Source of the DNA: Faecalibacterium prausnitzii | GTDB lineage: Bacteria; Bacillota; Clostridia; Oscillospirales; Ruminococcaceae | Length of the DNA: 64,000 nt | Direction of reading: 5' to 3' | Assembly: GCF_003287405.1 (NCBI RefSeq) | Contig: NZ_PRLD01000008.1 | Location: 62,001 to 126,000, forward strand | Program-made: the position numbers and the translations under genes | In this document: positions 12,325 to 60,165 of the stretch, piece by piece | How positions within the stretch are numbered: position 1 is the first letter of the stretch | How the letters are laid out: each line of letters opens with the position of its first letter | Notes under the pieces: generated by a model | Databases searched by the model: none | What the model was told of the DNA's origin: nothing | What the model saw: only the letters and a program-made list of their open reading frames with translations

Positions 12325-12349
12325 AGCTTTGCAGCTTTCCCTCAGCCAG

Positions 12350-12463
12350 ACGATTTGAACTGCGCTCCGCGTTGCTCTGCGCAGAAACAGCGGAAAAATT
12401 ATTTTTTATTTCGCGTTTGTCGCGCTCTGCGGAGCGCTCCAAACGCCTTTTCACGAGAGGGGC
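12350..12463 (-). repeat. Family B two-hairpin intergenic element (copy B1)
   Basis: Read on the minus strand: CCCCTCTCGTGAAAA, a hairpin GCGTTTG..GCGCTC-cgca-GAGCGC..CAAACGC (12413-12446), an A/T spacer ending TTTTTCCGCTG, a second stem CTGCGC/GCGCAG, and the tail TTCAAATCGTC. It lies between tepA and ftsK. Confidence 0.7.
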
Positions 12464-12504
12464 TGGGCTCGTTCCATTTTCCTCAAGAAAAACAACATTA
12501 TGGT

Positions 12505-27393: not shown

Positions 27394-27419
27394 CAGATCA
27401 AAACGACCAAGCAATATAA

Positions 27420-27451
27420 AATACCGGAGCATCTGCAGATGCTCCGGTATT
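27420..27451 (+). terminator. Terminator of the gltA operon
   Basis: AATACCGGAGCATC pairs with GATGCTCCGGTATT around a short TGCA centre, followed by TTCGTTTTG. Confidence 0.85.
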
Positions 27452-27483
27452 TTCGTTTTGTCGATATAAATATACAAACAAAA

Positions 27484-33017: not shown

Positions 33018-33054
33018 AATCTCTCCTTGAGATGGTTTGCTTCCCGCAAGCGTC

Positions 33055-33216
33055 CTCGCCCTCTCCGTCAAAGCCTGACGACTTTGCCAGCTCTCCCAAA
33101 GGGAGAGCCTCTGGCGAAACCGTATACTTTGCTCTTGAACCAGGAACTATACCGGCCTGCCAAGGCCTCTCCCTTTGGGAGAGGTGGCATGGCGTAAGCC
33201 GTGACGGAGAGGGCGA
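33055..33216. repeat. Family A intergenic palindromic element (copy A3)
   Basis: Arms CTCGCCCTCTC/GAGAGGGCGAG, both CTCTCCCAAAGGGAGAG-type palindromes, tip hairpins CAAAG-cctgacga-CTTTG and GGC-gta-aGCC. A family B copy follows within 70 bases. Confidence 0.8.
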
Positions 33217-33284
33217 GCCCGCTAATCGCCGCGCGACTGTTTCCGCAGGAAACCAGCGCGGCAGCTGCCGTTTGCCTTTACGAC

Positions 33285-33400
33285 CCCACCCGTGAAAAAG
33301 CAATTCAGGAAAATCCGCAGATTTTCCTGAATTGCAAAATATAAATCATTTTTCCGCTGATTATGCGCAGAGAAACGCGGAGCGCATTTTTAATGGTCAT
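33285..33400 (+). repeat. Family B two-hairpin intergenic element (copy B2)
   Basis: CCCCACCCGTGAAAA, hairpin GCAATTCAGGAAAATC-cgca-GATTTTCCTGAATTGC (33300-33335), AAATATAAATCATTTTTCCG, second stem ATGCGC/GCGCAT, then mfd's leader. The first hairpin with following A/T run could also terminate pth transcripts. Confidence 0.75.
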
Positions 33401-40120: not shown

Positions 40121-40192
40121 TCTGTTTTTGCACTATTTCTTTGTGCTAGTTGCTATCGCATTTTTATTTTGCAACAGCCCCAAACATAAGAA

Positions 40193-40368
40193 TATATTTT
40201 CCGCTGAAGATTGCCAGAGTGCAACGACAACGACCGCCGCCAGTGGCGGAAACAGGGAGGAGTTGTTGGGGCAGCGGCCAGCAAGACGCAAGTGCCACCC
40301 AAGGCACGAAGCGGATGCTGGGTGCCGCAACCCGATAGCTGAGGCCATTTCCAATCGTCCCGCGCCAA
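40193..40368 (+). repeat. Split family B-like element (copy B5)
   Basis: TTTTCCGCTGAAGATTGCCA at 40197 matches the start of the family B second stem, and GGCCATTTCCAATCGTCCC at 40343-40361 matches its tail. In other copies these are about 25 bases apart; here about 125 bases lie between, including hairpin CCGCCgccagtGGCGG. Confidence 0.45.
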
Positions 40369-42144: not shown

Positions 42145-42250
42145 ACACTCACCAGCCTTTTCTACTCGTTTGCTCCATTCTAGCACAGCCCGGGGCGTTT
42201 GTATACCGGGGAGCGGACGATTTTGAATGGCCGCCGCGGTGTGAAGCATC

Positions 42251-42384
42251 CTCGCCCTCTCAGGCGCTACGCGCCAGCTCTCCCAAAGGGAGAGCCTTTG
42301 GCAGTCCTCGCAAACTTCATCTCTTTGCCAAGGTCTCTCCCTTTGGGAGAGGTGGCATCGCATAGCGATGACGGAGAGGGCGAG
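42251..42384. repeat. Family A intergenic palindromic element (copy A4)
   Basis: Arms CTCGCCCTCTC/GAGAGGGCGAG, both core palindromes, and tip hairpins GGCGC-ta-cGCGCC and ATCGC-ata-GCGAT. It lies between the ABC exporter terminator and the GH2 promoter region. Confidence 0.8.
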
Positions 42385-42420
42385 CACGCTAAAAAAAACA
42401 TTTTCACGGGAGATAAAAAG

Positions 42421-52193: not shown

Positions 52194-52318
52194 CGACCCC
52201 TCCTGTGAAAATGCAAGCCCGGAAAGTCCGCAGACTTTCCGGGCTTGTTCTATTTTATAATAATTTTTCCGCTGAAAATATCCAGAGCACAAGCGGCGGA
52301 TATTCCAAATCGTCCCAC
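52194..52318 (+). repeat. Family B two-hairpin intergenic element (copy B3)
   Basis: GACCCCTCCTGTGAAAA, hairpin GCAAGCCCGGAAAGTC-cgca-GACTTTCCGGGCTTGT (52213-52248), A/T spacer, TTTTTCCGCTG, second stem AATATCC/GGATATT, tail CCAAATCGTCCC. Both stems differ from other copies yet still pair. Confidence 0.75.
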
Positions 52319-57560: not shown

Positions 57561-57596
57561 GCAGAGCCGGACAGCCCGCGGGCTGTCCGGCTCTGC
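57561..57596. terminator. Bidirectional terminator between S-component gene and folC
   Basis: GCAGAGCCGGACAGCCCG pairs with its perfect complement CGGGCTGTCCGGCTCTGC; it lies between convergent genes. Confidence 0.85.
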
Positions 57597-57625: not shown

Positions 57626-58897
57626 TTACACATTCAGGCGGGCAAACGCCTGCCGGACATCACCGGAGAAATACAGCGTACCCAGTGCGCATACCGGGCC
57701 TTCGCCGCCCAGTTCTTCCGCACGCGCCACACCGGCTTCGATGCTGTCCGCAGCCTCGGCGGTGCAGCCGTAGGCGCGGATATGCTCCGCCAGCGTCTGC
57801 GCCGGCATGGCGCGGGGGTTGTGCGCCGTCACGGTCACGAACCGCTCAGCCAGCGGTGCCAACAGCGCCAACATCTCGTCCACGTCTTTATCTGCCATGA
57901 TGCTGACCAGAAAGACGAATTTCTGCCCGGGGAAGCGGTCTTTCAGGCTCTGCACCGTGGCGCGCATCCCGTGGGCGTTGTGGCTGCCGTCCAGCACAAA
58001 GGTCGGGCTGTGGCGCAGCAGCTCAAAGCGCCCGGGCCAGCTCACCTGCTCCAACCCGGTGCGGATGGCGCTTTCCGGGATGTTCCAGCCGTGCTGCCGC
58101 AGCACCCGCAGGGCGGTAATAGCCAGCGCGGCGTTGCGGGGCTGATAGCTGCCGATAAGCGGCAGGCGCACCCCGTCCAGCCCGTCAAAGCTGAAGGTGA
58201 CTGCGTCCAGATCCCCGCCGGTGATCTGCAGCTTGGCAAAATCCACCTCGGTAAGGGGCGCATTCTGCTGCGCCGCCACCCGGCGCAGCACGGCGTCTGC
58301 TTCCGGTGCGCCGCCGTAGCTCACCACCGGGCAGCCCGGCTTGATGATGCCGGCCTTGGCAGCGGCGATATCCGCCAGCGTAGGGCCAAGCTCCTTGACG
58401 TGATCCATGCCCAGTGCGGTGATCACCGCGCAGGCGGGCGTTTCGATGACATTGGTAGAATCCAGCGTGCCGCCAAGTCCCACCTCCAGCACTACGATAT
58501 CGCACTGCTGCTGCGCAAAATAGAGCATTCCCAGTGCGGTGATGATCTCGAACTCGGTGGGCACGTCCTCCATGGCATCGGCGGCAGGCTTTACCTGCTC
58601 CACCAGCTCCACCAGCGCCTCGTCCGGGATCTGCTGCCCGTTGATCTGGATGCGCTCGTTGAACCGGTTGATGAAGGGCGAGGTATACAGTCCCACCCGG
58701 TAACCGGCGGCTTGCAGGCAGGAAGCCAGCATTGCCGCCGTACTGCCCTTGCCGTTGGTGCCCGCCACATGGACGAATTGCAGCTTTTTGTGCGGGTCGC
58801 CCAGTGCAGCCAGCAGGGTGCGGGTGCGGGTAAGCCCGGGCTTATGCCCCGCCCACTGCACCGCGTGGATGTATTCCATTGCCTGTTCGTAGTTCAT
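57626..58897 (-). CDS. folC: Folylpolyglutamate synthase / dihydrofolate synthase
   Basis: 423 residues with the Mur-ligase fold: P-loop GTNGKGSTA (45-53), FNERIQINGQQI, EVGLGGTLDSTNVI, ITALGMDHVKELGPTL, and the C-terminal DGSHNAHGM. It adds glutamates to folates, retaining them in the cell, and may also make dihydrofolate. It is on the same strand as folT and downstream of it, but about 500 bases of palindromic repeats lie between, so joint transcription is uncertain. GAGG lies upstream of the start. Confidence 0.95.
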   Translation of the reverse strand: MNYEQAMEYIHAVQWAGHKPGLTRTRTLLAALGDPHKKLQFVHVAGTNGKGSTAAMLASCLQAAGYRVGLYTSPFINRFNERIQINGQQIPDEALVELVEQVKPAADAMEDVPTEFEIITALGMLYFAQQQCDIVVLEVGLGGTLDSTNVIETPACAVITALGMDHVKELGPTLADIAAAKAGIIKPGCPVVSYGGAPEADAVLRRVAAQQNAPLTEVDFAKLQITGGDLDAVTFSFDGLDGVRLPLIGSYQPRNAALAITALRVLRQHGWNIPESAIRTGLEQVSWPGRFELLRHSPTFVLDGSHNAHGMRATVQSLKDRFPGQKFVFLVSIMADKDVDEMLALLAPLAERFVTVTAHNPRAMPAQTLAEHIRAYGCTAEAADSIEAGVARAEELGGEGPVCALGTLYFSGDVRQAFARLNV

Positions 58898-58920
58898 AGA
58901 TACTGCCTCGATTCAAGATC

Positions 58921-59034
58921 ACGATTTGGAATGCGCTCCGCTTCGCTCTGCGCATAAATAGCGGAATCACTATTTATATTTCGCGTTTGGAGCGCTCTGC
59001 GGAGCGCTCCAAACGCATTTTCACGGTAGGGGTT
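58921..59034 (-). repeat. Family B two-hairpin intergenic element (copy B4)
   Basis: On the minus strand CCCCTACCGTGAAAA, a 15-bp perfect hairpin GCGTTTGGAGCGCTC-cgca-GAGCGCTCCAAACGC (plus 58983-59016), A/T spacer, ATTCCGCT, second stem ATGCGC/GCGCAT, tail TTCCAAATCGTG. Confidence 0.75.
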
Positions 59035-59044
59035 TGGGAACGAG

Positions 59045-60067: not shown

Positions 60068-60165
60068 CAGCAGCGGGATGCAGACCCTGCACCGCGGTCA
60101 ATACCTTCGTCCGCAGCACAACTCCCCGTTGATGCGGCACTTAACGCGCAGGGTCTTACTCTGTT
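60068..60165 (-). ncRNA. Tetrahydrofolate (THF) riboswitch
   Basis: The minus-strand leader contains the conserved THF aptamer elements in order: AGAGTAAGA, GCGCGTTAAGTG, GACGAAGG, CCGCGGTGC and TCTGCATCCCGC. The P1 ends and core match the folT motif described in Firmicutes. Folate binding should favour the downstream terminator and switch off folT. Confidence 0.9.

Follow-up and report, generated by a model that had tools for sequence, protein, structure and literature searches.

A dispersed hairpin repeat of Faecalibacterium whose stem covariation probably reflects largely the replacement of whole hairpins

Background

The described systems closest to the element considered here are the REP, BIME and REPIN repeats, MITE-like bacterial elements, mitochondrial hairpin elements and intrinsic (Rho-independent) terminators. 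The double-hairpin elements of Allomyces mitochondria are said to be dispersed and thought to be mobile, and bcr1 is reportedly one of a class of intergenic, taxon-restricted repeats of 100-200 bp. REPs are palindromes of 20-40 bp that carry a GTAG or CGTC tag. That template switching can give rise to perfect stems is in print (PMC8794818).

A sequence-only reading of the window (the whole stretch of 64,000 nucleotides of Faecalibacterium DNA analyzed here) had picked out four copies of a two-hairpin element, and had taken their covarying stems as a signature of selection on RNA, or single-stranded DNA, structure. Our preferred interpretation, to which we assign a probability of roughly 0.6, is that this is a DNA-level dispersed intergenic repeat lying mostly at gene 3' ends, with turnover of whole hairpins as the main source of the covariation.

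Organization of the element in the window

All four copies were recovered where they had been placed, with covariance model scores of 117-130 bits: at 33281..33400 (+; 130.1 bits), which sets the orientation used below, 12347..12465 (-; 118.0 bits), 52194..52316 (+; 118.0 bits), which is flanked by two predicted genes both ending towards it, and 58918..59035 (-; 117.0 bits), upstream of folC. In this orientation the element comprises an optional hairpin 0, the segment CGACCCCTCCCGTGAAAA, hairpin 1 with a CGCA loop, an A/T spacer, TTCCGCTG, hairpin 2 and ATTNNNAATCGTC. On the opposite strand one reads a stop codon, then GACGATTT and hairpin 2, next the A/T spacer and hairpin 1, whose loop is c(UGCG)g, and last UUUU(U)CACGGG. 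The core is about 120 bp long, and about 190 bp with hairpin 0.

In the first copy, direct reading places the GC-rich hairpin 0, with a GCA loop, at 33228..33262 (+), an upstream part common to many, though not all, own-genome copies, and a U-run at 33295..33299 (-), immediately 3' of hairpin 1 on the minus strand. Reading together with the alignment places the terminator-like hairpin 1 at 33300..33335 (-), with a 16-bp stem and a loop that is CGCA on the plus strand and UGCG on the minus strand; the A/T-rich spacer at 33336..33362 (+), whose end is the conserved TTCCGCT segment; and hairpin 2, with the 6-bp stem ATGCGC/GCGCAT and a conserved loop, at 33363..33387 (+). The conserved tail on the side of the neighboring gene (33388..33400, +) has the consensus TTNNNAATCGTC in the alignment and here reads ATGGTC. 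CCGC at 33354..33357 (+) has a potential GCGG partner at 33377-33380, a putative pseudoknot helix in which the own-genome copies show no double changes. Hairpin 0, the T-run adjoining hairpin 1 (on the opposite strand only) and the existence of back-to-back copy pairs had been absent from the sequence-only reading. Its description of the stems as exact complements needs two minor corrections: the copy at 12350 has a tandem G-A mismatch inside the stem (GCGTTTG-GA-GCGCTC / GAGCGC-GA-CAAACGC), and in that at 52194 the outermost pair is G-T.

Several other repeats lie in or beside the element. A partial composite copy at 40170..40222 (+; E 4e-05) has its hairpin 2 interrupted by another repeat, and at 42213..42419 (-) site comparison finds only the edges of the element, around another repeat, at a position where G005 and G022 have intact copies. 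A longer common repeat (CCTCTCCGTC... / GACGGAGAGGG), seen in the window at about 33040-33225 and 42230-42400, often abuts the element or replaces its interior. Repeat 'C' (about 90-100 nt, with AAAGCCCCAGTGGGGCTTT) sits inside the hairpin-1 loop in L025, L039, L041 and the mfd locus of G022 (L075), and repeat 'D' (ACGACGACGACCGCCGCC...) inside the hairpin-2 loop at window 40170-40222 and in L013, L014, L019, L021 and L075; both loops thus receive insertions of other repeats. Perfect 16-bp palindromes whose loops (CGCG, TGCA) are related also stand alone beyond the element, at window 57561-57596 and 27418-27453, in a classing that counts weak element copies as 'outside'. The window further contains a THF riboswitch aptamer at 60069-60165 (-; RF01831, 87.7 bits), which is some 1.2 kb away from folC (57629-58897, -).

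Copy number and distribution

A structure-free search (nhmmer) of 33 stretches and the window found 51 copies at E < 1e-15, of which 43 near full-length ones form alignment A2. A covariance model then showed the repeat family to be far larger than the four copies initially noted, with at least 147 matches at E <= 0.01 and at least 82 above 90 bits in the window's 3.03-Mb genome; this search scored the best 150 of 1611 first-look candidates, so that weak copies may be missing from these counts. The model search of own-genome stretches left out L031, which L189 overlaps. A survey under stricter filters (E <= 0.001) covered 41 genomes, 25 of the same genus, including that of the window, and 16 of other genera. 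Eight of the 41 have matches: at least 88 each in G000, G005 and G022, 76 in G009, 4 in G006, 3 in G020 and 1 each in G001 and G015. The other 17 same-genus genomes and all 16 of other genera gave no match at this threshold. Copies are hence numerous in only 4 of the 25 same-genus genomes and were found in none outside the genus, which points to a clade-limited expansion.

One exact pattern of the element is present, among named genomes, in Faecalibacterium sp. I4-1-79, F. prausnitzii ATCC 27768 and CNCM I 4541. That no Rfam family matches the element, as had been suggested, was borne out at gathering level, all matches at the element falling below the gathering score. We found no description of it in the open-access literature, which is weak evidence of absence, and the accessible part of PMC2267715 makes no mention of Faecalibacterium. 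Carriage by phages or plasmids was considered and rejected: a scan of viral contigs for one element pattern gave no exact match, and blastn found no element on plasmids. Fifteen unverified 'Bacteriophage sp.' fecal records do match the element, and in two of these, MT836242.1 (L207) and MT839320.1 (L208), seven of eight tested ORFs belong to Pfam transporter or BacA families and the eighth to none, for which reason these two look like scaffolds of bacterial DNA.

Pairing and covariation of the stems

The covariation claimed from the four copies stands up against both shuffled and slid controls. Among the 43 own-genome copies, which were found without a structure model, 97.2% of the pair cells are standard pairs against 73.6 +- 0.8 in the shuffles, cells changed on both sides number 254 against 66.5 +- 6.8, and the covariation score is 0.626 against 0.164 +- 0.011; when the structure is slid, the paired cells fall to 33-48%. 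The 116 distinct rows from relatives, in an alignment that had been fitted to the model and is biased in its favor, are 98.0% paired, with a score of 0.724 against 0.190. In both sets four of the five measures lie far above the controls, the exception being further pair types, which in the own copies are not above the shuffles (46 against 44.5).

Across 197 copies the 3129 stem-1 cells comprise 3039 Watson-Crick, 12 G-U, 8 A-C and 70 other combinations, the last mostly at the outermost pair and in the tandem G-A mismatch of one stem type. The left arms take 99 distinct forms among these copies, and the common ones recur with the same neighboring bases, the arm GCAATGCCGGAGCGTC for example being followed by TCTA in 7 of 7 cases. 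Stem-1 and stem-2 types are weakly linked (0.666 observed against a mean of 0.528 in 1000 shuffles, 5 of which reach that value, with orthologs included). Within the structure-blind set, fewer than 5 of the 15 arm positions are non-Watson-Crick in 47 of the 51 own-genome copies; the loop region is not intact in the remaining four, three of which have another repeat in the loop. As the copies with mismatched arms are all interrupted or loopless, no chimeric hairpin is seen.

Replacement of whole hairpins at orthologous sites

Copies were matched between G000, G005 and G022 by their gene-side flank, with a minimum of 250 aligned bp and of 88% identity. This gave 62 ortholog pairs, 60 of them, from 40 sites, being usable after two with interrupted hairpins were dropped. 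Hairpins were called 'same' from 90% identity upwards for hairpin 1 and from 85% for hairpin 2. On this scale neither hairpin has changed in 28 pairs, hairpin 1 only has changed in 16, hairpin 2 only in 10 and both in 6. Hairpin 1 is accordingly replaced in 22 of the 60 pairs and hairpin 2 in 16, the latter count being approximate, as 'replaced' includes L019/L154 (two truncated, repeat-interrupted copies) and some 'same' pairs differ in stem type. Mostly one hairpin is replaced without the other, and the flanks of the changed pairs are 90-99% identical. Counted by site, hairpin 1 only has changed at 10, hairpin 2 only at 8, both at 5 and neither at 17, so that 23 of the 40 sites have changed. 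Whole hairpins are therefore replaced at fixed sites.

At the site of window 58918-59035 the three genomes have three hairpin-1 sequences, two of them in the G005 and G022 counterparts, next to nearly the same hairpin 2 and tail; since G000 and G005 here share an unusual 5' segment, AAACCCCTACCGTGAAAA, the change of hairpin 1 is limited to about 55 nt. L117 and L114 have a nearly identical spacer and two different hairpins, and in the back-to-back pair L019/L154, compared with L176, two nearly identical hairpin sets have swapped places, as an inversion would leave them. By a strict criterion, the sides are retained in only 2 of 22 hairpin-1 and 5 of 16 hairpin-2 replacements, though in no more than 0.3% of non-orthologs with differing hairpins; on this test we rejected an exchange confined exactly to the hairpin. 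Most hairpin-1 replacements reach further upstream, and the unit of exchange is thus not sharply defined. As hairpin 1 at orthologous sites has mostly either stayed as it was or been replaced in one block, the covariation probably stems largely from whole-hairpin replacement, probably by exchange among copies.

We compared stem 1 with ordinary terminator-like hairpins of the same genomes, in 135 ortholog comparisons from overlapping genome pairs that are not all independent. These controls have 220 G-U in 1764 pairs (12.5%, against 0.4% in stem 1), with 97 single-arm and 2 double changes at a flank divergence of 3.7%; 10 further hairpins with a CGCA-type loop, counted separately, show 5 G-U, 5 single-arm and 0 double changes in 142 pairs. 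In stem 1, orthologs with the same hairpin show 2 single changes and 1 double in 605 pairs, a scarcity that is partly a matter of definition, the class having been set at 90% identity or more, and replaced orthologs show 175 double and 8 single changes in 345 pairs.

These figures bear on the possibility of a structured RNA, acting in cis or in trans, in whose stems selection on the RNA fold would favor ordinary compensatory mutations. Such an RNA would fit the very strong covariation, its position at gene ends would allow transcription, and two ortholog comparisons (L012/L167 and L172/L156) differ by a single paired step, indicating that stepwise paired change also occurs. However, in place of paired changes with tolerated G-U intermediates we find G-U at the low level given above, A-C (which is G-U on the other strand) about as rare, and replacement in blocks, with the doubly changed pairs of the replaced orthologs lying beside flanks of high identity; the presence and position of the element moreover turn over between species, as detailed below. 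This compensatory reading is already disfavored, and we hold it to be distinctly improbable. Of the original interpretation, it stands that structure is kept while sequence changes; ordinary RNA compensation fits poorly with so few G-U, A-C and single-arm changes and with about half of the stem pairs replaced at once. Selection on RNA is not the best reading of the covariation, while the alternative it was offered with, a structure in single-stranded DNA, may apply.

New paired stems could also be made without any exchange between copies, by template switching within a hairpin, one arm being copied by fold-back. This mechanism, which the available portion of PMC8794818 proposes for RNA genes, would explain the strict Watson-Crick pairing, and 32 of 49 one-step arm pairs do join perfectly paired stems. 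On the other hand, the hairpin-1 loop is CGCA in 185 of the 197 copies and TGCG in 0 of 197; a loop that is never inverted makes fold-back copying less likely. Template switching alone, further, cannot explain the recurrence of identical hairpins with the same neighboring bases at several sites. Exact 36-nt twins elsewhere in the same genome, in incomplete samples, exist for half of the hairpins of replaced pairs (22 of 44), which would speak against it, though at about the same frequency as in unchanged pairs (32 of 76). We regard it as an unlikely main source.

The same comparisons could in principle reflect independent insertions of different copies at one hot-spot, or assembly errors between near-identical repeats. 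The sites are indeed hot-spots for several repeats, repeats are prone to mis-assembly, and most hairpin-1 replacements also alter the upstream sequence. Yet many pairs keep site-specific variants of hairpin 2 and the tail, and some pairs also of the spacer or 5' segment, while one hairpin differs, and replacements are also found between the single-contig genomes G005 and G022 (the window's genome being a 70-contig draft), which leaves this explanation very unlikely.

Under the preferred interpretation, the intergenic repeat would have multiplied in one group of Faecalibacterium species, mostly at gene 3' ends; hairpin 1 would be a putative terminator or 3' end read on the strand opposite to that of our orientation; and the hairpins replaced at fixed sites would have other copies as their source. 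Replacement of this kind lets stems vary and yet stay perfectly paired. A more active version, possible but on the doubtful side, is that hairpin exchange, perhaps with a recombinase of its own or a single-stranded DNA intermediate, swaps terminator-like hairpins among about 100 sites faster than point mutation changes the flanks, and so renews the paired stems. A hairpin excising as an independent unit was rejected: a scan of 1,178,666 bases with narrow patterns found no copy lacking hairpin 2, and its one match lacking hairpin 1 (L041) is without the element tail and looks like chance.

Entire elements also come and go. None of 12 relatives examined has an intact element at the mfd site, that of the copy at 33281..33400; in G005 (95% identical) the tail alone remains, and in G022 the copy is interrupted in both hairpin loops by other repeats. 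At S1 and S6 an element pair is present in G005 (or G005 and G022) where a relative has an ordinary terminator, and at S5 a single G022 copy where G005 has an ordinary terminator. No clean empty site with a target duplication was seen among the filled and empty sites compared.

Gene context and a putative terminator role

Gene context was obtained with a home-made gene caller for 182 of the 197 copies, 15 at stretch edges being dropped, and compared with a background of 183 gaps of at least 120 bp. Divergent gaps account for 4 of 148 copy-bearing regions against 46 of 183 in the background (p 2e-9), convergent gaps for 51 against 33 (p 9e-4) and codirectional gaps for 93 against 104, in stretches that were mostly chosen for holding copies and with orthologous sites counted up to three times. 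The window's genome alone gives 1 divergent, 39 codirectional and 20 convergent of 60. The contiguous stretches alone give 3, 17 and 5, respectively, with no convergent enrichment and a weak shortage of divergent gaps. On the hairpin-2 side the gene ends towards the copy in 118 of 182 cases, at a median of 15 nt from the stop codon and within 30 nt in 75. In the other 64, including mfd and folC (genes confirmed), it starts away from the copy, which then lies upstream of the gene. A 5' leader or promoter element, as the mfd example might suggest, was rejected as a general rule in view of these 118 genes and the rarity of divergent gaps.

Read in the direction of the ending gene, hairpin 1 has the form of an intrinsic terminator, a stable hairpin (median folding energy -28.5 kcal/mol) with a short U-run (4-5) behind it; 118 of the 182 copies are so oriented. 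Loops of the UNCG type confer extra stability. Some copies are located past an ordinary terminator. IS200-like elements of about 760 bp, encoding a Y1 transposase, are found directly after intrinsic-terminator hairpins, in the T-run, in L135, L136, L137 (the window's genome) and L140. In L141 (G009) one lies just after hairpin 1 in the same orientation, and in L143, elsewhere in that genome, a truncated copy of it has at its other end, by reading, the sequence to be expected downstream of hairpin 1. These observations support a role as terminator or 3' end without proving it; judged from its sequence and placement, hairpin 1 probably serves as an intrinsic terminator or as the 3' end of an mRNA.

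The IS200-like elements near copies (L136, L141, L143) were also considered as a mobilizing partner and rejected, being separate elements that follow terminator hairpins. More broadly, the repeat could be a REP/REPIN- or IS200/IS605-like non-autonomous transposon, its hairpins being the single-stranded DNA structures that a Y1 (HUH) transposase recognizes. The hairpins, the back-to-back pairs and the bias towards gene ends all match REPs as described in the accessible part of PMC3733652, compensatory changes are reported for REPINs in that of PMC3116915, and Y1 genes occur in some host genomes. Against this, the copy-rich G005 has no Y1_Tnp match in a search limited to PF01797, while G011, G013 and G019 (the last two partial) have one and no copies; the Y1 element that was identified has ends of its own and inserts after terminators; the narrow pattern scan revealed no excised copies; and a conserved GTAG tag is wanting. 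Many copies can thus be kept without a Y1 transposase, which we rejected as a necessary partner on the PF01797 result for G005, and a transposon of this type seems improbable.

Comparison with known systems

If the above is correct, stems that covary across a repeat family, which textbooks take as a sign of selection on RNA, would here owe their covariation largely to whole hairpins being replaced in DNA, and covariation tests on such families would call for caution. The element would also offer a natural system, with many sites and in cultivable gut bacteria, for palindrome exchange and terminator turnover.

With the REP, BIME and REPIN repeats, as far as the accessible parts of PMC3733652 and PMC3116915 describe them, the element shares a high copy number, intergenic location near gene 3' ends with few divergent gaps (weaker in the contiguous stretches alone), inverted pairs, and stems that vary while remaining paired. 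Unlike the 20-40 bp REP palindromes, it spans 120-190 bp with two to three different hairpins, and its conserved CGTC is found on the opposite side of the hairpin: the tail AATCGTC is at the 3' side, so that the other strand has GACG 5' of the hairpin, with unpaired bases between, where REPs have GTAG or CGTC at the foot of the palindrome. No dedicated Y1 transposase of the REPIN/RAYT kind accompanies it by PF01797, G005 having copies without the gene and G011 the gene without copies. The bacterial MITE-like RU-1/RU-2 and bcr elements are likewise 100-200 bp long, intergenic and taxon-restricted, according to the available parts of PMC2759123 and PMC2229807; the Faecalibacterium element differs in having no target duplication at the compared sites and in the replacement of hairpins within it. 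Overall, it resembles the REP, REPIN and MITE repeats but failed the REP hallmarks that were tested (tag and Y1 transposase).

Mitochondrial double-hairpin and repetitive hairpin elements (RHE) are, in the accessible part of PMC2800124, similarly dispersed and thought to be mobile. In the RHE of sponge mitochondria, as given there, the stems are conserved and the loops change, the opposite of what is seen in Faecalibacterium, and in another genetic system. Finally, like intrinsic terminators, the element presents a stable hairpin and then a U-run after gene ends; in contrast to these, its hairpin 1 is set within a larger repeat, is almost free of G-U pairs, has a short U-run and is replaced as a unit.
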